26,693 bases of DNA from a virus. The stretch covers positions 1 to 26,693 of IMG/VR virus record IMGVR_UViG_3300023202_000154, one strand, 5' to 3'. The notes under the pieces were generated by a model. It was not told the origin of the DNA. It was given only the letters and a program-made list of their open reading frames with translations, and searched no databases. Below are positions 3 through 11,628 of the stretch, piece after piece; the stretch's first letter is position 1, and every line of letters begins with the position of its first letter. The position numbers were made by a program, and so were the translations under genes.

Positions 3-341
3 GATGCGATCGTAGACACGATGAAGAATACTGATGATCAACCCGATCTTGCTCGTCGAGTCTATGATACGCCTGATGCAAATCCAGAATCTTGGGGTGC
101 TCGTCTAAGAGAATCAATGGTTGAAGATGCAAAGAGAGATCAACAATTTAGAGCAGCCGGACCAATCCGTGCAGCGGAGAAAGGTTCTCAGCAAGCCTTT
201 GAACGGTTGGTACGTGCCAGTGAAATGAACAAGGATCGTGAAATTTTGGATGAGACTAGAAAAGTTGTTGAGAAGTTGGAAGAGATTGATAGAAATACTC
301 AACTACTAGAAAATCTGCAAGACTTTCAAACGGTTGGCTAG
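3..341 (+). CDS. Tail tape-measure protein, C-terminal end (partial)
   Basis: The frame is open to the left edge, so this is probably the tail end of a longer protein; an internal ATG at 21 could instead start a 106-aa protein. The visible part is charged and helical: a segment AAEKGSQQAFERLVRASE is followed by a coiled-coil-like stretch ending in EKLEEIDRNTQLLENL. Tape-measure proteins, which set tail length and line the tail lumen, often end in this way, with a KGS-x-EA-like segment and then a short helix of the type 'LE-x-I-x-x-NT'. The next gene starts 3 bases after the stop, as expected in a tail operon. The assignment is by resemblance only. A free-standing small coiled-coil protein is the alternative. 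Confidence 0.5.
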   Translation, partial: DAIVDTMKNTDDQPDLARRVYDTPDANPESWGARLRESMVEDAKRDQQFRAAGPIRAAEKGSQQAFERLVRASEMNKDREILDETRKVVEKLEEIDRNTQLLENLQDFQTVG

Positions 342-344
342 ACT

Positions 345-1289
345 ATGACACGATTCCTTGGTGAAATAAATGCTGCAAACGAAGATCGTTTCAGTGTTGT
401 ACATAAGAATCGTTATTGGACACTACGTGCCCAGTTACAACGACAATATAATGTACTGTCTGATGATCTTACACAGACGTCTACAGATATTATTGAAAAC
501 ACACCCGAGCTACCGAGATTGCTACAGAAGCTTCAAGGTGTCAAGTGTGTCGAAGTCACCGCAGAAGAAGATGAGCGAGTTTCCTTCAACGGCACAGATC
601 GTATCCTTTGGTTAGTGACCGCTAAGTTTGATACCGACACTGGCGAAGGAACTGGTGGTGGTAATGATGATGAAGGTGAGGATCAACCACCTACAGAAAG
701 AGCAGTCAAGACCAGATGGTACGGAGAAAATGAACAAGAACAGATGTTTTTTGATCGAGTAGATCGCAAGGTTCCTGTCACCACCGTAGTTGGTGAATTC
801 ATCTACTTAGAACATCCAGTCGTTCGACCGATCCTAGAAATTCAACGAATTGAATACGCACCCTTCAATCCCTTCATCCAATTAGCCTTCGCAAATCGAG
901 TGAACAGTAGTTTATTTTTTGGTGCACCCCGAGGTTGTGCTCTGATGATGCCAATGGTAACACGAGAACTTGTAATCGAAAGTTATCTCTATATTGAAGT
1001 TACCTACACCATCAAGTTTGCCATGAGAGAAGACCCTGATAATCCAGGAACATTCTTGGAAGATCAATGGAAAGCAGAACCACTTCATGAAGGCAACTAC
1101 TGTAAAGACGAGAACAATGAAATCAATCGTTGCGTAGACCCCAAGGGACGACCGACACGAGCCCTCTTAGAACAAGACGGTTCACAAGTCTTTGATGTTC
1201 AGGACTACCTAGCAAACACGGCTGAAGAAGATATCTATCTCTCCTTCAATCGTTATCAATATGCCGATTTCAATCTTCTCCAACTGTAG
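345..1289 (+). CDS. Tail/baseplate-side phage protein, function unknown
   Basis: A 314-aa soluble protein that starts 3 bases after the preceding stop and ends 8 bases before the next ATG, so it is probably translated as part of the same tail operon. There is no signal peptide or membrane segment. A low-complexity Gly/Asp/Glu linker near residues 101-114 (GEGTGGGNDDEGED) separates an N-terminal part from a larger C-terminal domain that is rich in beta-prone sequence. I recognise the general pattern (NPFIQLAFANRVNSSLFFGA, then a beta-strand 'Y-x-E-V-T-Y-x-I-K-F', and a C-terminal 'D-x-x-G-x-x-x-R-x-L-L-x-x-DG') from proteins encoded just downstream of tape-measure genes in planctomycete phage-like loci. 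I know no biochemical role. A baseplate or hub component is an inference from position. Confidence 0.6.
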   Translation: MTRFLGEINAANEDRFSVVHKNRYWTLRAQLQRQYNVLSDDLTQTSTDIIENTPELPRLLQKLQGVKCVEVTAEEDERVSFNGTDRILWLVTAKFDTDTGEGTGGGNDDEGEDQPPTERAVKTRWYGENEQEQMFFDRVDRKVPVTTVVGEFIYLEHPVVRPILEIQRIEYAPFNPFIQLAFANRVNSSLFFGAPRGCALMMPMVTRELVIESYLYIEVTYTIKFAMREDPDNPGTFLEDQWKAEPLHEGNYCKDENNEINRCVDPKGRPTRALLEQDGSQVFDVQDYLANTAEEDIYLSFNRYQYADFNLLQL

Positions 1290-1297
1290 GATTGATC

Positions 1298-1858
1298 ATG
1301 ACTGTTTACGGCTTCGAACGGCCTGATGCCGAGACTCTGCTAGAGATGGCAAGAGCCCGTCGTGTCTCTCCTCAGCAAGGATTAGCTACTGAACAGAATA
1401 TCCCTGATGCTCTAGAACGTAGTCTTTACATGGTGGTTCCCAAACAGAATATCTCTGGGACAGAATCATCAAGTGGAGTATTAGAAGGTCTCTCTAGTGC
1501 TGATTGCTATGTTGTAGAAGTCATCAATGAAGATGGAGATGTAGATTTTGTCCGTAATCCCGGTACAGGCAATCGAATAGAGATTGGTCCTGTCTTCAAT
1601 ATGTGCTCACATCTTGTGAAAGCACCTACAGCAGATGGTGCTGTTGAAGATTGCACTATCTACTTAGCTGTTCAAACCAACTTCGGCACTTACGTCATCA
1701 TTGATACTTGTCGAAAAGATTGTGACTCTGAATGTGTAACTCATATCGGTGGTATGGAGATCACTCGAATCGATACTGGATCGGCAGCCAGTGTCACACA
1801 CGTCCTAGGTGTTGATAACAGCGGTTGTCTTGTTCGTGTACCAGTGGATACCTGCTGA
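1298..1858 (+). CDS. Tail-side hypothetical protein, cysteine-containing
   Basis: A 186-aa protein. I place the start at ATG 1298, preceded by GGA at a workable distance (TAGGATTGATC); an ATT codon two positions upstream is unlikely to be used. It opens with MTVYGFERPDAETLLEMARA, a short conserved-looking N-terminus I associate with tail-region proteins of planctomycete phage-like loci. The rest is probably beta-rich, with a cysteine cluster near residues 146-153 (CRKDCDSEC) and a last residue that is also Cys. Its stop overlaps the next ATG as TGATG, which implies translational coupling. Fibre, tip or minor structural protein is a guess from position. Confidence 0.6.
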   Translation: MTVYGFERPDAETLLEMARARRVSPQQGLATEQNIPDALERSLYMVVPKQNISGTESSSGVLEGLSSADCYVVEVINEDGDVDFVRNPGTGNRIEIGPVFNMCSHLVKAPTADGAVEDCTIYLAVQTNFGTYVIIDTCRKDCDSECVTHIGGMEITRIDTGSAASVTHVLGVDNSGCLVRVPVDTC

Positions 1859-2730
1859 TGTCATCTTTTTGGTTCTCGCTTGACGGTGGGGGTATTGTTC
1901 GTAATGGTGGAAACATCATTGCTTGTGATGATTGTCCCTGCGATTCTAGTCTTTCTTCTTCATCATCAGAAGAACCTCCTAGTGGCGGTAGTGGAAGTAC
2001 TGTTACTTCAGAGTATGGAACATGCCGTGGCGGTTGTTGCAATGGTGAGGGTTCTCTTCAACTTTCAACTACTTTTAATGGACCTTTTCCTCAAACATAT
2101 CCAAATGATTGTTTTGATTGTGAGACTTTTGGTAATATTTTTGACGGTCAGACATTCATACTCGAAGCAGCTTATCCAGTTTATGCAGATCAACCCTGGA
2201 GATGTTGCTACAGTTACACTATAAAGCCTTACCGAACTGATGAGCAGTGGAATACTCTTTCAAATGCTCGTTGTGATTGTCTCTATAGTCCTGAATATTG
2301 TGCTGGTTTTACACTTCCCTGTTATCCTCTCAGCAATCCTTCAGGATCGTTATGTTGGTACACAGCCATATATGACGTACAAATCTTCGCTGGAATTACT
2401 TGTGCATTCCTCCAAACTGGTATCAATGAATTTGTACCTAGTGGTTACATGCATGTAGCTGTTCTTCTCTATTGGTTTCATGGTGCTATTCCTATATGGC
2501 AGGGGTGGACTGGAATCGTTGGTCAAGCTGACACTACCAGTTGTAAACCTTTCAGCGTATCTTGTGATCCTATCAGAACATACGATCACCCCTTTCAATA
2601 TGGCACTGGAGGTTGTCCGTTTACTGATCCGTATTTTGGTCCAATCTCTATTGGCGGTATTCCCCCAACTAGTCACAATACTACCGGGGGATGTCGTGCT
2701 CTTGGACCGGTAACAGTAAGTACAGTATGA
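1858..2730 (+). CDS. Cysteine-rich protein with Ser-rich linker, probable tail/fibre component
   Basis: A 290-aa protein. The start is ATG 1858, overlapping the previous stop (TGATG); the frame is also open 33 bases further upstream. Residues 1-25 hold a short beta-like segment and a CDDCPC motif. A serine-rich linker (SLSSSSSEEPPSGGSGS) follows, then a larger domain with many cysteines (C-x-G-G-C-C, C-F-D-C, C-C-Y, C-D-C) that also has many aromatic and proline residues. The many cysteines suggest disulfides or metal binding in an exposed protein. There is no clear signal peptide. Its position at the end of the tail operon suggests a virion surface or receptor-contact role, which is inference only. 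Confidence 0.6.
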   Translation: MSSFWFSLDGGGIVRNGGNIIACDDCPCDSSLSSSSSEEPPSGGSGSTVTSEYGTCRGGCCNGEGSLQLSTTFNGPFPQTYPNDCFDCETFGNIFDGQTFILEAAYPVYADQPWRCCYSYTIKPYRTDEQWNTLSNARCDCLYSPEYCAGFTLPCYPLSNPSGSLCWYTAIYDVQIFAGITCAFLQTGINEFVPSGYMHVAVLLYWFHGAIPIWQGWTGIVGQADTTSCKPFSVSCDPIRTYDHPFQYGTGGCPFTDPYFGPISIGGIPPTSHNTTGGCRALGPVTVSTV

Positions 2731-2748: not shown

Positions 2749-4626
2749 ATGCCTAAAGAAAAACTGAAGTGTCAATTCGTTTACATTGACAAGGAAAATA
2801 GTCCTTTTGAAAAAATGTGTAAGAACTGTAACTTCCACATTGTTACAGAAACTCCCCCAGAGAAGATACACAAAGACTGTCATGGCAAAGAACATGTTCG
2901 TCAAAGCTTAGCTGCCGTAGCAGTAAACTTCGGCAAAGAGTATCTCACTTGGAAGTACAATGGTAGTCCGGTACGGAGTGATGAACGAGTCATTGAACTC
3001 TACGACAAGGTATGTTCTCCTTGTACATTCTTTTCCAAGCATCCTCAGAAAGAAGAAGGTATTTGTACTCTCTGTCGTTGTCCCCTAGCGAAGGATGATC
3101 GTAAAAGAAACAAGTTGCGGTATGCTACTACGAGTTGTCCTGATAAACCTCCTCGTTTTGCCGCAGAACATGACGAGATCAGAAATCCTCCTCCACAATC
3201 TGAACCTTGTTGTGGTGATCATTCAGAACAACAGTTAGAGTCTATAGAACAACCTCTAACCTTCTTCCAAGAATCCTACGTACTTAACCTCAATAGTCGT
3301 ATGGATAGGATGGATGATTTCTACATGAACATTGACGGTTGGCCCTTCTCCAAGCCTTACCGTATTGGAGCGATCAATGGGAGTATCACAGGTTCTCCAC
3401 CTTGGTGGCAGGGTAACAACGGTGCTTGGGGATGTTACCGCTCCCATCTCAATGCTCTTGAAGTTGCTATGCATCGTGAAGTGGAGAACTATTTTGTCTT
3501 TGAAGATGATGCCATCCTCTGTGAAGACTTCAATGACTACATCAAAGACTTCGTTGAACATGTTCCTGATGATTGGGACATGATCTACTTAGGTGGTCAA
3601 CATCTCAACGCTCGCTTTTCTCCACCAGTTAAGGTAAACGAACATGTCTATCGTGGCTGTAACATCAATCGTACCCACGCCTTTGCTGTGAATCGCAGAT
3701 TCTACAAGAAGCTCTATCAATACCTGACAAACTTTTCTGCTTGGAAACAACCTTACCATATTGATCACCATCTTGGTCGTCTTCACGAAACCGGCAAGTA
3801 TAATATTTACTGTCCACGTCTATGGTTGATAGGACAGTCAGACAGTGACTCAGATATCGCAAATCGTTGGAAGAGCAAAATTCGTTTCTGGAAAGGTGCT
3901 GAAAAGATCAAGACTTTCGATCGTGTTAAACAACCCTATCTCATTATCCTTGGTCTTCACTCTTCCGGTTCATCTTGTATTGCCGGCATACTACATCATC
4001 TGGGTGTACATCTTGGTCTTGATCTTGGCGGTTACTACGGCAAAGACCCTCTGACTAGTTGTGGTTTTGAGGCAAAGGAACTAACAAGTATCCTAGAACA
4101 TTGTATCGGCTTTCCCGATTTACAAACTAGAGTAGCTCCTGATGTACTCCAACTTTCTCTTAGCAGTTACCTCAATCGTCATCGTACACTTGTTAAGGGC
4201 ATGGATGTTCTGGGTGGTTCCAAGTACCCTCTACTCTGTGCTTGCAAAGATGTACTACTCTCTACCCTGGGGGAGAATCTTTACGTAATCAACTGTCAAC
4301 GTTCTCTCGACACCTGCATTGCCAGTCTCCAAAGACGTTCCAAGTATCAGAAGATCACTCCGGAACGCTTAGCCAAACACCAACGTTGGCTATGGGAGGG
4401 CAAGCAAGAGATTCTCAATGAAGTACCCTATGAGCGATCGCTTAACGTCTGGTACGATGACGTACTTGACGATTCAGAGAAAGAAGTCGATAAGATTATC
4501 GACTTCTTACAAGAGAAATTGGACCGGGCTCCGACAACTGAGCAACGCGAAGTTGCCATACGTTATCCGGACCCGGCCCGTTGTCACTTTACGAAGGCAT
4601 CCCCAGCATTATCCAATGTAAGTTAG
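2749..4626 (+). CDS. Zinc-ribbon / GT25 glycosyltransferase / sulfotransferase fusion
   Basis: A 625-aa protein, ATG preceded by GGGAGCACTT. Three parts are visible. Residues 1-145 hold Cys/His clusters (CKNCNFH, CSPCTFF, CTLCRCPL) that look like zinc ribbons. Residues 170-380 match the GT25 (LPS/collagen galactosyltransferase-like) pattern: SYVLNLNSRMDRM near 175, W-G-C-Y-R-S-H, and an FEDDAILCED segment near 251 whose acidic residues would bind metal and sugar nucleotide. Residues 395-610 look like a sulfotransferase: a PAPS-type loop LGLHSSGSS near 400-408 followed by GVHLG, and a C-terminal 'D-DVLDD' helix region. The protein could add a sugar and a sulfate to a virion or host glycan. It closes the tail operon, which favours a virion substrate. 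Its 3' end overlaps the convergent helicase gene by 18 bases. Confidence 0.75.
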   Translation: MPKEKLKCQFVYIDKENSPFEKMCKNCNFHIVTETPPEKIHKDCHGKEHVRQSLAAVAVNFGKEYLTWKYNGSPVRSDERVIELYDKVCSPCTFFSKHPQKEEGICTLCRCPLAKDDRKRNKLRYATTSCPDKPPRFAAEHDEIRNPPPQSEPCCGDHSEQQLESIEQPLTFFQESYVLNLNSRMDRMDDFYMNIDGWPFSKPYRIGAINGSITGSPPWWQGNNGAWGCYRSHLNALEVAMHREVENYFVFEDDAILCEDFNDYIKDFVEHVPDDWDMIYLGGQHLNARFSPPVKVNEHVYRGCNINRTHAFAVNRRFYKKLYQYLTNFSAWKQPYHIDHHLGRLHETGKYNIYCPRLWLIGQSDSDSDIANRWKSKIRFWKGAEKIKTFDRVKQPYLIILGLHSSGSSCIAGILHHLGVHLGLDLGGYYGKDPLTSCGFEAKELTSILEHCIGFPDLQTRVAPDVLQLSLSSYLNRHRTLVKGMDVLGGSKYPLLCACKDVLLSTLGENLYVINCQRSLDTCIASLQRRSKYQKITPERLAKHQRWLWEGKQEILNEVPYERSLNVWYDDVLDDSEKEVDKIIDFLQEKLDRAPTTEQREVAIRYPDPARCHFTKASPALSNVS

Positions 4627-7044: not shown

Positions 7045-7146
7045 TTAATCCATAAAGTAGTCACTGATCCATTTACCAACTAATCCGTAACAACTGAGTA
7101 TCAAAGCTGTCACGACAAAGTGACGGAAAACTTTAGTAGACCGCAC
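7045..7146 (-). CDS. Predicted 33-aa single-span membrane peptide
   Basis: A GTG-started frame on the minus strand overlaps the end of the glycosidase-like gene by 14 bases and fills an otherwise empty 90-base gap. The predicted peptide has a basic N-terminus (VRSTKVFRHF), a hydrophobic span (VVTALILSCYGLVG) and an amphipathic end (KWISDYFMD). That layout is typical of real small phage membrane proteins, and the frame is collinear with its neighbours. The ribosome-binding site is weak, so the call is tentative. A run-through non-coding spacer is the alternative. Confidence 0.4.
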   Translation of the reverse strand: MRSTKVFRHFVVTALILSCYGLVGKWISDYFMD

Positions 7147-8203
7147 TATCGATCCAATCATTTCCCCAGTTTTTGTGATTCCAGGCACCCCAGATATAAG
7201 CGAGGAAGTGCCATTCATAACCAATGTGCTGACTCGCCATTACACCTGGCCAAAAATAACCCTCGGTCAACCGATGCGTAGGTCCATAAGCTTCCAGTGA
7301 GACTGCTGAATTTTCGGCTTTACCACGGAAATAATCATGCCACATCAGCTTTGCTCGTTCCCAAGTCCAACGTACTGGGTACTCTGTCCCTACACCCTTC
7401 ACATATCCTGGTTGAGCAGCGACAACTCTCATGTCGTAGTAGCCAGCCATAGAGATGGCAGGCACAAAATACTTACATCCCCACTTGCTGCCTTTGGAAA
7501 CAAAATCAGTGAGAGCATAAGATTGCCATGATCGTTGGTTGCCGTTGTACATCTCCGTAGATGCGTATCCATCATGGTTTTGATTCTTGGTATGATGAGG
7601 ATTTCCAGCTTTGTAGGAATGCCAGAGCATATTAACTAGTGGGAAGTACTCTTTGGCAATCTCATAGGCCAAGTTATTCTTGGATTCCAAGGCAACAACT
7701 TGGTCTGTTCTCCTGCCACCATCAGGATCAGCGTTACCCTCATCATCAAGATCACAGCGGAGAATCTCTTGATCAAACAAGATCATGCCGACTTCATTTG
7801 TGTAGCCTGCTACGTCCATCATTGTCTTAAGACCTGAAAATTTATCGGACATCAGTTCTAGTTCTTCGGTGGCAGTCGCAGGCCATCCCCGAGGGTCTTT
7901 ATCATTGTAGACATAATGCCAAGGTGAATACTGAATAGCGATCTTCACTCCCGCCGATTGAGCAACTTCAAGTGCTCGATCTACATCGGCTTGATCGGCA
8001 TAATAGATGGACAGACCTACACTACCGCAGATACGGGCAAGATGATCTGCATACTGATGATTGAGTACGGCAGCTTCACTTGGCCAACACCAGTGACGAT
8101 AGGGTAATGCTGGTGCATTCTGTAGTTCTGCAAAAACAGCTTCACGATCAGCTGGTTCTGGAACGATGTAACCTGAATTGTAGGGTACCGTAGCAAGAGG
8201 CAT
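7133..8203 (-). CDS. Glycoside-hydrolase-like (TIM-barrel) protein
   Basis: A 356-aa soluble protein without a signal peptide. Alternating hydrophobic strands and helices (GLSIYYADQADVDRALEVAQ, GVKIAIQYSPWHYV, EVGMILFDQEIL) together with many Trp/Tyr/His residues suggest a glycosidase-type (beta/alpha)8 barrel. FDQE, in a strand-end position, is a plausible catalytic acid, but I cannot name a GH family. Start ATG 8203 has GGAGA 6 bases upstream. The leader contains CACTTT repeats also found before the pentapeptide gene at 25291. A phage could use such a protein to degrade host surface polysaccharide, but the absence of a signal and the position away from the tail genes argue for an intracellular role or for delivery within the virion. 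Function unproven. Confidence 0.55.
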   Translation of the reverse strand: MPLATVPYNSGYIVPEPADREAVFAELQNAPALPYRHWCWPSEAAVLNHQYADHLARICGSVGLSIYYADQADVDRALEVAQSAGVKIAIQYSPWHYVYNDKDPRGWPATATEELELMSDKFSGLKTMMDVAGYTNEVGMILFDQEILRCDLDDEGNADPDGGRRTDQVVALESKNNLAYEIAKEYFPLVNMLWHSYKAGNPHHTKNQNHDGYASTEMYNGNQRSWQSYALTDFVSKGSKWGCKYFVPAISMAGYYDMRVVAAQPGYVKGVGTEYPVRWTWERAKLMWHDYFRGKAENSAVSLEAYGPTHRLTEGYFWPGVMASQHIGYEWHFLAYIWGAWNHKNWGNDWIDSAVY

Positions 8204-8503: not shown

Positions 8504-9901
8504 TTAGGCAGCAGCCGTTTCTAATTCCTCTTCTTCTTCCTCTTCATACTCCCCTTCCTCTTCGTAGTCATCCTCCAAATCTTCCTCGTTTTCTTCGTCT
8601 TCGATTTCTGGTTGATCACCGCTTAACCAATCAATCGAAGCTTCATAGACTTCGTTGTCTTCTGCCCGTAAGAAGATTTGATCCTTGTCGAATTTGACGA
8701 TGACTCCCTGCCATGGTTCGGTCTCTTCGTCATTGACCCAAGCATAGTCACCGAGTGACCATTTACCAATCTTGGTAGTAGGCTGAGCATCTCGTGCAAC
8801 GTCGAGACCACCAATACGGGGATACTCGGCAAGCTTTCGTTCACCATCAACGTTCTTCTCTTTCACTCGAATATCTTTGGCACTCTTGGCCTTTTTGCCT
8901 TCAATCCAAAGATTCCAAGCTTTGACGATCGCTCCGTACACGCGATCTCGTTCACCGGCACCTGAACCTGCCTGTCGAACAAGATACTTGCTCAATACCA
9001 AGATCGGATCACCTTCCTTGAGACCTTCACCGCTGGCCAGTTTTACCCAGAACTCTTCAGCTTTTTCCCAGCTACTCTTGACGATCTTACAGTCGCCAGT
9101 CTCTATATCTACCTTGCTGTTGGCAGTACCCATCAGATACATCATGCCTGTTGCAATCGACAGCGAACAGTACGCACGGATACGTTGACCATCTTCACCT
9201 GATCCACCATCTTCTTCGAAGATGAACAACAATGCTTTCTTGAGCAATGGATGCTCTTCGATCAAATCAAGTGATTCCGAATGTGGATGTCCTTTCGCAT
9301 CACTGGCATTCTTGCCACCCCAACGCTTCCACAATAGATTGACCGATTGACCAAGTGTGTCAGAAAGCTGCTTGATCTTCCGTTCAGTGAGTGGCTTACC
9401 CTCAAGCTTGACATCGGCAAACTCATCTCGACGAAACAATACATCTCCGAGACTTCGCTTCTGACCAAGATCAACGGTGTCAGCCGTGGCAGGATCAATT
9501 CCGAACATAAACATGAAGGGTACGGTAATCGGTTTGGTCAATCCATACTCTTCCTGCCAATGCACAGGATTCCGTTTCCGCTCTTGCTCAGCGAGTACCA
9601 AGGCAGCCAGTCGATGTTGTGCTGAGATGATACCGCCGTACCAATCAAAGATAAGATTGTGACCGTTTAAGGTCCACTTACCTCGCAGCATTTCATTGGC
9701 ATACTTATCTGCCAATGATTTTCGGAACGGCCGATTGTGGGTATTGTTCTTGAAACGGATATATTGCCCTTCCAAATCTTTCAAATGGTAAGGCTCACCC
9801 TTTTCTACGACAGTCCACCCCAGCAATTCTTTAGCCTTCGCTACGGTTGTATGCAGATCAATCTCATGCGAAGGCTTGGTATACTTTTTTCTTCGAGCCA
9901 T
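8504..9901 (-). CDS. ParB-like (xGQHR-type) phage protein with acidic tail
   Basis: I start this at ATG 9901 (465 aa) because GGAGAG lies about 7 bases upstream; a start at 9916 would add five residues with no ribosome-binding site. Residues 60-100 read NRPFRKSLADKYANEMLRGK, then WTLNGHNLIF, and GGIISAQHRLAAL. This matches phage ParB/Srx-like proteins, which usually carry 'M-x-x-G-x-W ... I-x-F-D-x-x-G-x-x-x-x-GQHRL'. A 'VDLGQKRSLGDVL' block follows, as in the family, where 'iDtGxxRs' is usual. Note AQHRL in place of GQHRL. After a C-terminal KOW/SH3-like stretch (KIGKWSLGDYAWVNDEETEP) it ends in about 40 residues that are mostly Glu and Asp. Probably DNA-related; nuclease activity is not established for this subgroup. 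Confidence 0.65.
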   Translation of the reverse strand: MARRKKYTKPSHEIDLHTTVAKAKELLGWTVVEKGEPYHLKDLEGQYIRFKNNTHNRPFRKSLADKYANEMLRGKWTLNGHNLIFDWYGGIISAQHRLAALVLAEQERKRNPVHWQEEYGLTKPITVPFMFMFGIDPATADTVDLGQKRSLGDVLFRRDEFADVKLEGKPLTERKIKQLSDTLGQSVNLLWKRWGGKNASDAKGHPHSESLDLIEEHPLLKKALLFIFEEDGGSGEDGQRIRAYCSLSIATGMMYLMGTANSKVDIETGDCKIVKSSWEKAEEFWVKLASGEGLKEGDPILVLSKYLVRQAGSGAGERDRVYGAIVKAWNLWIEGKKAKSAKDIRVKEKNVDGERKLAEYPRIGGLDVARDAQPTTKIGKWSLGDYAWVNDEETEPWQGVIVKFDKDQIFLRAEDNEVYEASIDWLSGDQPEIEDEENEEDLEDDYEEEGEYEEEEEEELETAAA

Positions 9902-10295
9902 TTTCGTGCTCTCCATTTAAGAGATAGTGATGTTGATCTTGAATTGTGATCGTCAGATATCCTACTCGCTCAGCAATGAAAGTCTAGTGTACAAAATCTA
10001 GTAGTCAATCTAGGTCTTCCACCACCAGATAGAGTGGCCATCCCCTCTGACAGGTGGTCTGGTTATCAACTACCTCCAAATCGACGTCAGCCATTTCCAA
10101 ACCGAATTAGGACCCCATAGTAACTCAAAACCTCCCTCTCTCTCCCCCTGCAACCCCCTCTTCTCACCCACAGTAGTCTTCTGGAGGGAAGTAGAATATT
10201 CTTATAAAACTAGTACTCTATAACATCCTCTAAATAACCCCCTATATAACCCCCCTATAGTCCCCCCTTCTCTTCCCCCTTCTTTTCTCCCTCTT
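9902..10295. other. Non-coding region with pyrimidine-rich tract
   Basis: About 390 bases between two minus-strand genes. The part near 9980-10010 holds a possible promoter for the ParB-like gene. From about 10110 to 10295 the plus strand is strikingly pyrimidine-rich, with repeated CCCCCTATA-like units (CCCCCTATATAA, then CCCCCCTATAG, then TCCCCCC at 10238-10267) and several CTCCC/CCCCTTC runs. No gene is supported; a 71-codon open frame here is a by-product of the low-complexity tract. The region could be a replication or termination element. Confidence 0.5.
9981..10008 (-). promoter_or_regulatory. Candidate sigma70-type promoter for the ParB-like gene
   Basis: On the minus strand TTGACT (10008-10003) and TAGACT (9986-9981) are separated by 16 bases, and the gene starts about 80 bases downstream. 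The -35 matches 5 of 6 consensus bases and the -10 matches 4 of 6. CTAG repeats overlap it. Confidence 0.3.
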
Positions 10296-11069
10296 TTAGA
10301 TACCAAGTACATTACCAACATTATGAATCTTTCTACTGTCAATACCATTCCTCCTGAGCAGATAGTCGAGTTGTCTCTTAGCATGAGTTTTCCCGTACTT
10401 TCTTTTCTTCCGTTCATGTCTTTCTTTTAGACGACTGATAATGTTCGACTGATAACGGAAATGATGGACAGTGATCCAATGTGACTTTTTGATTCGTGGA
10501 CAAACATGGTGTCCTCTTGGTGGTGGCTTGATTCCCCCTACGTAGACTGAAGGGTGTTGTCTATCCATTAACCTACGTGCTCCCCTATAACCACAGGGAA
10601 ACTGATCTTCTAGCAATTCATCTTGATTAACTCGCTTCAAATCACCATCTTCAGTTATCCGATCTAACCAATTCCCATAGACGGCCTTTAAGGAACCCTT
10701 CTTGATCTTCCATTTCAACCAATTACTGATGAAAGGGAATTCGTCAAGATCGGGGTACCATCCCCAATCGATCCTTGGCATCTCATTATGCATTTTCTTC
10801 AGAGTCTTGAACTGGTCACTGTGATAATCATCTTGCCTGTATTGTTCTAATCGGTAAGATATGTTCTGGAAATTTTCATTTCCATTTACAAACTGAGCTA
10901 CGGTGTCCTCTATCCGATCAAACAACCAGTTATTCACCCAACAAGCTAGTACAAGTTCATCACATTCTACTTTCTCAAACCAGTATCGTAGAAAGAATGG
11001 AAGAAGATCGATGCTTGATCCTCTCATCTCAGCACACTCAGGTTCAAAGATTGAGGAGTAAACTCTCAT
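10296..11069 (-). CDS. GT-A glycosyltransferase (family-2-like)
   Basis: A 257-aa protein if started at ATG 11069; the frame is open 39 bases further upstream with two more ATGs. It has the hallmarks of the DxDEF-type GT-A transferases: an N-terminal 'E...D.LPFFLRYWFEKVECDELVL' segment as in proteins that open with 'DELVL-x-x-W', a central YPDLDEFPFI whose acids would bind metal and nucleotide sugar, and then GNWLDRITEDGDL and EDQFPCGYRG, matching the 'G-x-x-x-DR-x-x-x-DG ... E-QFP' block I know from this group. A basic C-terminal tail follows. It sits back to back with the methyltransferase gene, sharing the CATG at the starts, so the pair may modify the same glycan. No Shine-Dalgarno is visible. 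Confidence 0.65.
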   Translation of the reverse strand: MRVYSSIFEPECAEMRGSSIDLLPFFLRYWFEKVECDELVLACWVNNWLFDRIEDTVAQFVNGNENFQNISYRLEQYRQDDYHSDQFKTLKKMHNEMPRIDWGWYPDLDEFPFISNWLKWKIKKGSLKAVYGNWLDRITEDGDLKRVNQDELLEDQFPCGYRGARRLMDRQHPSVYVGGIKPPPRGHHVCPRIKKSHWITVHHFRYQSNIISRLKERHERKKRKYGKTHAKRQLDYLLRRNGIDSRKIHNVGNVLGI

Positions 11070-11628
11070 GCGAAACTTTGAAGAGGTTTGGGAAGACATT
11101 CGGCACATTCCTGGATGGCTGCTAAAAGATGAGGCAAAGCTTCTTTATGAAGCTGCCCAACGTTGTGCTAAACCTTATCCTATGTTGGAGATCGGTACCT
11201 ATCAAGGTAGAAGTACCACCTTGTTGGCTGAAGCTGGGCAACATGTTTACGCAATAGACCCTCTCAGTGAAAAAACATTACAGCAAATCAAAACGCCCAC
11301 CAAACCAGCAGAAGAACTTACTGTAAGCTTGGAAAAAAGATTCTCCAAACTTCTTAATGTTCAATGGATGAGAGAACATTCCACAAAGGTAACTATTCCT
11401 TTCAAAAATATCTCACTGCTGTATATCGACGGTGATCATAAATGGCCGGCACCTTTAATCGACTTCCTAATTTACAAACGGTCGCTACACCCTGATTGTC
11501 TGATTCTCTTTCACGACTATGGGTCCAGGAAGGGAGTCACACGTTCAGTAAGATTGCTTGTGCGTGCCCGACAACTCACTATCGAGGCGAAGGCCAGCAA
11601 GATGGTGCTTTGTCGTCAGTCCAGCTAG
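11068..11628 (+). CDS. Class I SAM-dependent methyltransferase (Methyltransf_24-like)
   Basis: A 186-aa protein, ATG 11068 with GGAG about 11 bases upstream. The SAM-binding core is clear: motif I MLEIGTYQGRSTTLLAEAG near residues 39-57, an acidic strand end YAIDPLS for the ribose contact, YIDGDHKW near 119-126, and FHDYGSRKGV near 148-157. The DGDH...HDY pattern is typical of Methyltransf_24-like enzymes, which act on sugars or small molecules and are often found in glycan gene clusters. The adjacent divergent glycosyltransferase fits such a role. The start codon overlaps the glycosyltransferase start on the other strand, so any promoter must lie inside one of the two genes. Confidence 0.8.
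   Translation: MRNFEEVWEDIRHIPGWLLKDEAKLLYEAAQRCAKPYPMLEIGTYQGRSTTLLAEAGQHVYAIDPLSEKTLQQIKTPTKPAEELTVSLEKRFSKLLNVQWMREHSTKVTIPFKNISLLYIDGDHKWPAPLIDFLIYKRSLHPDCLILFHDYGSRKGVTRSVRLLVRARQLTIEAKASKMVLCRQSS

Follow-up and report, generated by a model that had tools for sequence, protein, structure and literature searches.

What a virus would do with a single polypeptide carrying both a sugar-transferring and a sulfate-transferring domain is the question raised by the gene at positions 2749..4626 (+) of the virus record IMGVR_UViG_3300023202_000154, the whole 26.7-kb stretch of which (26,693 nt) was analysed and is hereafter referred to as the window. The virus is a phage, since DNA polymerase A, a Sak4-like annealing protein, a primase/helicase and a UvrD-type helicase are encoded downstream of this gene, and a tailed one, given the tail-module synteny of the gene described below. 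The reading favoured here, with a probability of about 0.55, is that the gene product, P0001, is a bifunctional late enzyme of a siphophage tail module, the GT25 glycosyltransferase domain of which would add a hexose and the sulfotransferase domain sulfate it, likely on the tail fibre.

Phage glycosyltransferases and stand-alone phage sulfotransferases are already known. Stand-alone Sulfotransfer_3 genes of unclear function have been reported in phages (PMC10580990), and in glacier viruses a Sulfotransfer_3 gene has been reported as auxiliary (PMC8290583). In the mycobacteriophage type of virion glycosylation, exemplified by Maravista, phage glycosyltransferases are proposed to decorate virion proteins (PMC11256854), and P0001 resembles these in being a phage-encoded glycosyltransferase for which such a role is proposed; the Maravista-type systems differ in their hosts, and neither sulfation nor a glycosyltransferase-sulfotransferase fusion was found described for them (PMC11256854). 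What appears to be new is the conserved and widespread single-chain fusion beside tail-fibre genes. The earlier note on this DNA knew of no described phage enzyme that adds and sulfates a sugar in one polypeptide, which agrees with our literature searches (openly licensed papers only): papers on phage sulfotransferases, GT25 in phages and planctomycete phages or prophages yielded no description of a GT25-sulfotransferase fusion.

The reading frame of P0001 runs from the ATG at 2749 to the stop at 4626 through 625 codons with no internal stops, and this uninterrupted ORF bears out the coordinates, the frame and the single 625-aa chain given previously. The AlphaFold2 (AF2) model, for which an alignment of P0001 and 42 relatives (43 sequences, A4) served as input, has pLDDT values mostly above 90 over residues ~172-610 and below 50 over the Cys-rich head. 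The presence of a GT25 and a sulfotransferase domain within one chain is confirmed by this model together with the Foldseek and Pfam matches and the conservation of both domains in the family. The earlier observation thus stands, on a larger scale than first described, and its interpretation is supported in part.

A scan of the viral contigs seeded with the window protein returned stand-alone GT25s only and suggested that the fusion is unique to the window, a candidate conclusion that was overturned by a profile search. Among 392 Planctomycetota genomes searched, one (G222) encodes three fusions in full length, their identity over residues ~170-606 being 37-43%, and a profile built from these and the window protein (A3) retrieved 80 viral contigs. 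A total of 64 full-length GT25::sulfotransferase ORFs, including the window and six ORFs from bacterial genomes, were identified in the viral contigs and the Planctomycetota genomes; dereplication left 37 members (window included), which form the set for the residue-conservation counts below. Four separate viral regions with the fusion (L070, L082, L087 and L103) are filed under the same IMG genome number, 2824432718. A later scan seeded with nothing but the sulfotransferase half added nine further contigs, all of them GT25 fusions (9/9); the 64 fusions and these contigs indicate that the two activities stay together. Scans with the window sulfotransferase half alone, and with the tail protein P0002 alone, gave no relatives. 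The fused protein has no match among 50,697 deposited phage records, where queries with the full protein, the C-terminus or the N-terminus found at most distant GT25 matches. The window protein is not a one-off and belongs to an undescribed family. Viral proteins of ~500 aa resembling two tandem GT25 domains per chain were also encountered (L019, L024-L026, L028).

The GT25 glycosyltransferase domain comprises residues ~172-385 (3262..3903, +). Residues 224-317 match PF01755 with an E-value of 2.4e-8 and 34.5 bits, the curated Pfam cut-off being 24, and the same family is found in 43/43 members of alignment A4 at E<=0.01. Foldseek comparison of the first half with the PDB gave human COLGALT1 with Mn and UDP-Gal (9evj, E 9e-11), the mimivirus protein R655 (9crz) and a bacterial GT25 galactosyltransferase. 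The segment FEDDAILCED, from which the earlier note had recognised the GT25 part, corresponds to residues 250-259 within the PF01755 match; its E252-D253-D254 motif (3502..3510, +) aligns with FEDD of COLGALT1 and is invariant in the family, so that the assignment now stands on an above-cut-off Pfam match, a structural match and an invariant motif. W276, G282-G283, H337 and D339 are likewise invariant (37/37 members). A GT-A type fold with an acidic metal-site motif is thus present, as judged by the 9evj match and the invariant EDD. P0001 shares with the known GT25 enzymes (PF01755, which includes LPS galactosyltransferases; COLGALT1; R655) the fold, the EDD motif and the donor-site architecture, and differs from them in its fusion to a sulfotransferase, its place in a tail module and an identity of ~35% to the nearest stand-alone phage GT25s.

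The sulfotransferase domain occupies residues ~397-610 (3937..4578, +). With the C-terminal part scanned alone, PF13469 (Sulfotransfer_3) is matched at E 7.5e-5 with 23.5 bits, under the curated cut-off of 27, which is passed by the family members L143 and L144 (55.5 and 62.5 bits, respectively). The nearest solved structures of the second half include Mycobacterium tuberculosis Stf1 (E 1.4e-6), human TPST2 with PAP (E 8e-6) and further sulfotransferases; the isolated domain is modelled by AF2 with a pLDDT of 94.1 and a pTM of 0.91 and retrieves Stf1 at the top, followed by TPST2/1 and the 3-O-sulfotransferases (3-OST), and the sequence profile of this half reaches Stf1 at E 1.4e-5. Eight residues, G402, G407, S409, E441, K492, P494, R518 and S526, are invariant (37/37). 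Lys492 (4222..4224, +), part of a K-Y/H-P motif conserved in all members, is aligned to Lys231 of the Stf1 chain, and R518-x7-S526 (4300..4326, +) is the 3'-phosphate-binding motif, the Arg...Ser pair of the strand-turn-helix element, its R...S spacing of 8 being that of the Sulfotransfer_1 consensus RXXXDXXXS (PMC11625862). The fold, the R-x7-S motif, the Lys of KxP and the glycine-containing PAPS loop are shared with the Sulfotransfer_3/Sulfotransfer_1 enzymes (Stf1, TPST, NodH-type, SULT); the differences are a Ser or Ala in place of the P-loop Arg in the clade of the window, the position behind a GT25 domain and the phage tail context. Host proteins matching the sulfotransferase part of the profile include TPR-sulfotransferases, which are a possible source of this domain.

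The PAPS 5'-phosphosulfate loop, G402-L-H-S405-S-G-S-S409 (3952..3975, +), was located by the family alignment. Sulfotransferases are described as having a catalytic Lys or Arg in this loop and a Ser in the 3'-phosphate site (PMC11625862). At position 405, which precedes SG, 28 of the 37 members have Arg, seven, including the window, have Ser and two have Ala, so the window carries Ser405 where the catalytic Lys/Arg is expected. Thus, the segment LGLHSSGSS (residues 401-409), noted earlier as PAPS-loop-like, does start the sulfotransferase fold but is devoid of the basic loop residue. Likewise, the earlier note had made its proposal depend on a sulfotransferase fold with its active-site residues in residues 395-610: the fold, R518...S526 and K492 are there, and the proposal was not refuted by this check. 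It is weakened by the absence of one active-site residue, Ser405 occupying the basic position of the PAPS loop, although a clade under purifying selection shares this change.

Eight of the nine Ser/Ala members form one supported clade (SH-aLRT 95), in which residues near the site change together (E430 to Y/W, G438 to C, G490 to A and H495 to Q). The window has Tyr and Cys at 430 and 438, but Gly at 490 and Leu at 495; it lies on a long branch and its exact placement inside the clade is unsure. The dN/dS values of the sulfotransferase half are 0.11-0.20 in the Ser/Ala clade, like the rest (0.03-0.29 overall), and those of the GT25 domain 0.02-0.26; in combination with the invariant catalytic-type residues, these values indicate that both halves are under selection. 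Simple decay of the sulfotransferase domain as the meaning of Ser405 was ruled out by the low dN/dS, the clade-wide change and the co-changes. The PAPS-loop site of this clade is therefore altered and not decaying, sulfate transfer by it being a prediction. A serious but on balance unlikely explanation of these changes is that the sulfotransferase half of the Ser/Ala clade transfers no sulfate or performs a different chemistry, e.g. as a PAP(S)- or acceptor-binding module, with GT25 alone being active. The replacement at 405 (Ser/Ala in 9/37) of the residue described as catalytic (PMC11625862) and the coherent co-changes around the site speak for it; the invariance of K492, R518, S526 and E441 and the clade dN/dS, which point to a maintained site, and the occurrence of the Ser/Ala clade in phages with the same tail module argue against it. 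Given Ser405, a sulfotransferase fold and a likely sulfotransferase function are claimed for the window protein, and canonical membership among the active enzymes is not.

The Cys-rich head (residues 1-165; 2749..3243, +) contains Cys clusters and has no significant family match in Pfam. Its residues 54-136 have a homologue in relatives (phmmer E 8e-13 for L088 and 1e-5 for L125, L133 and L101), where a small gene of its own encodes it immediately before the fusion, as in L088, L093/L097/L101, L125-L127 and L133; the window protein is therefore a triple fusion of a Cys-rich head, a GT25 and a sulfotransferase domain. The L125 homologue of the head matches DUF6171 weakly and below cut-off (E 0.0017), and the Pfam profile scan of the window head itself gave no match to DUF6171. 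The zinc-ribbon head proposed in the earlier note is still plausible: the Cys clusters are present, the pLDDT of the head is <50, and the head is a probable zinc ribbon with zinc binding predicted from the clusters. Upstream of the fusion, L111 (8427-8978), L077 (8520-9089) and L113 (7498-7908) have in common a small gene with the conserved pattern GPGxELKxxL...CxC...MNxWG...C..N, which is fused N-terminally in L253 (4954-6663).

The genes preceding P0001 in the window are the C-terminal end of a probable tape-measure protein (3..341, +; assigned by position), P0002, a tail protein of 314 aa placed between the tape measure and the fibre (345..1289, +), P0003, a fibre-like tail protein (1292..1858, +), and P0004, a Cys/Ser-containing protein (DSSLSSSSSEEPPSGGSGS; 1825..2730, +) directly upstream. 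The 3..341 fragment itself gave no direct tape-measure match, and the gene before the P0002 homologue in relatives is a PHROG tape measure. Homologues of P0002 occur at the same place in L062, L063, L065, L066 and L067 (E 1e-147 to 1e-169, iterated search), and in these five relatives the homologues of P0002 and P0003 are the two genes between the tape measure and the fusion, that of P0003 adjoining the fusion upstream. In the relatives, the tape measure is followed by a protein of 254-314 aa, by one or two fibre-like proteins, in some loci by a small Cys-rich gene, and then by the fusion; the upstream long proteins match one PHROG tape-measure family in 22/29 cases and another in 21/29. In nearly all loci the fusion gene lies directly behind the fibre genes inside the tail operon, and in L054 its ATG overlaps the stop of the fibre gene by 4 bases. 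A Gemmataceae prophage (L012, 4369-6627, +) encodes, directly after its tail genes, a Ser/Cys-rich tail-fibre-like protein fused to GT25 in one 752-aa ORF. The fusion gene thus sits in siphophage tail modules, a structural-module location established by synteny, and the position after tail genes noted from the window alone is seen in the relatives as well.

The Ser content of the upstream proteins was examined as poly-Ser tracts, a tract being defined here as any 30 consecutive residues of which at least 50% are Ser. In 26/34 loci, one of the first three ORFs upstream encodes such a tract, vs 4/291 other ORFs of the same loci (Fisher p 2e-27, related loci being counted as independent). P0004, a candidate acceptor, is modestly Ser-rich, with 37% Ser in its best 30-aa window, under the threshold, and the upstream protein of L064, the nearest tree row to the window, has 23%; hence poly-Ser is not the acceptor in every member, and the acceptor is less sure for the window. 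That poly-Ser tracts are exclusive to the fusion enzyme was ruled out by a control set of 80 loci, gathered via the gene between tape measure and fibre, in which poly-Ser fibres are common and mostly occur without the fusion. The next genes in the control loci include other glycan enzymes or the fusion in 13/23 loci with a poly-Ser fibre and 0/4 without one, a difference that is not significant (Fisher p 0.10); since 10/23 poly-Ser fibres have no detected cassette, the tract is not made solely for the fusion enzyme. The glycan enzymes of the control loci are GT4, GT64, Mannosyl_trans3/GT8, GT7C/radical SAM and FkbM methyltransferase, and sister phages carry GT4+GT64+FkbM, Mannosyl_trans3+FkbM or GT7/radical SAM behind their poly-Ser fibres (L176 12897-15963; L201 13342-16087; L179 6215-7318; L182 7161-8552). 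Among the fusion loci, L053 additionally encodes a DXD-type sugar transferase and L054 a pyruvyl transferase. Because sister phages put other glycosyltransferase/methyltransferase sets in this place, the fusion looks like one of several interchangeable modules of a glycan cassette that follows a Ser-rich fibre. In L208 (14899-19725), weak BrxA- and BrxC-like (BREX defence) matches lie directly behind the poly-Ser tail fibre gene.

Serine-rich-repeat adhesin loci of Gram-positive bacteria consist of a gene for a Ser-rich surface protein followed by exchangeable glycosyltransferases. The fusion loci share with them, by analogy only, the Ser-rich protein gene and the exchangeable glycosyltransferases, and differ in that the Ser-rich protein is a phage tail fibre, a dedicated secretion system is absent and sulfation is predicted. 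A wider generalisation, namely that a large group of uncultured planctomycete siphophages puts sulfated glycans on poly-serine fibre stalks by exchangeable cassettes, with the single-chain glycosyltransferase-sulfotransferase as a signature enzyme, is offered tentatively and may well prove too broad.

The genomes with relatives belong to Planctomycetota, the same phylum as the Gemmataceae genome of L012, and a number of relatives are prophage-borne in such genomes; the host of the window virus is, judging from these relatives, probably a planctomycete. Planctomycetota is a phylum rich in sulfatases. APS kinase is encoded in 8/8 tested genomes that harbour a relative of the whole fusion or of a single domain of it, so that the hosts can probably make PAPS and its supply by the host is plausible.

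The enzymatic activity, the sugar, the acceptor, the order of reactions and the host of the window virus are the parts of the following scheme that we infer. The fusion gene would be expressed late; the GT25 domain would take a hexose (galactose or glucose, in all probability) from a UDP donor and attach it to the acceptor, and the C-terminal PAPS-dependent domain would then sulfate the added hexose using host-made PAPS, the Cys-rich head probably aiding in docking or in recognising the acceptor. As acceptor, the likeliest candidate would be the tail fibre of the phage itself, which in most relatives carries a poly-serine stretch encoded just upstream, and the outcome would be virions with sulfated, acidic tail glycans that may alter adsorption or shield the fibre.

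The earlier note had left the target as either virion proteins or the receptor glycan. The balance now leans towards the virion, given the position of the gene behind fibre genes, the L012 ORF that joins GT25 to a fibre-like protein and the poly-Ser tracts usually present in the upstream fibre proteins; a glycan of the host envelope or extracellular matter as the target, serving receptor masking, superinfection exclusion or lysogenic conversion, is kept as a rather improbable alternative. It draws on GT25 being classically a family of LPS biosynthesis (Pfam description), on the relatives in Planctomycetota prophages, where conversion genes are common, and on the N-terminally extended L055, which adjoins other glycan-type genes, and is opposed by the place in the tail operon straight behind the fibre genes in nearly all loci, by the 4-base overlap of L054 and by the fibre-like GT25 ORF of L012. 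L055 itself (8860-11553, in the planctomycete genome G222) is a fusion with an N-terminal extension of ~370 aa. Two independent modifications of one tail protein, with GT25 acting on one residue and a TPST-like sulfation on a protein Tyr (or Ser), would accord with human TPST2/TPST1 being among the nearest solved structures of the sulfotransferase half; this is quite improbable, as Stf1 scores higher, glycan 3-O-sulfotransferases are matched too, and the presence of a glycosyltransferase in the same chain, seen in each of the viral members found, suggests that both halves act on one glycan. That two neighbouring genes were misjoined by chance or in assembly, or the sulfotransferase assigned falsely, has next to no probability in spite of the below-cut-off Pfam score of this half in the window, being refuted by the 64 homologous full-length fusions from independent contigs and genomes, the confident structure and the motifs, with the invariance of the catalytic-type residues in 37 dereplicated members excluding a chance fusion.

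The reading of P0001 as a bifunctional tail-decorating enzyme, in turn, would bear on more than the window. The fusion lies just behind tail-fibre genes in dozens of uncultured phages that seem to infect planctomycetes, which suggests that such phages equip their tails with sulfated sugars, and points to a chemical decoration of tails among the phages of Planctomycetota. To our knowledge, no phage system with sulfated virion glycans is known, and this one, if the wider generalisation above is true, would be the first. The fusion also offers a concrete answer, open to testing, to the question of the role of phage sulfotransferases, which PMC10580990 leaves unsettled, and the prophage members in sequenced genomes make the idea of tail sulfation directly testable.

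Elsewhere in the window, a 356-aa ORF at 7133-8203 (-) has no Pfam, PHROG or PDB sequence matches. The ORF at 10296-11108 (-), containing WYPDLDEF, gave a weak GT2-type match (E 0.067), and the one at 11068-11628 (+) encodes a methyltransferase (Methyltransf_24, E 1.8e-12), the two divergent frames overlapping by 41 bases.
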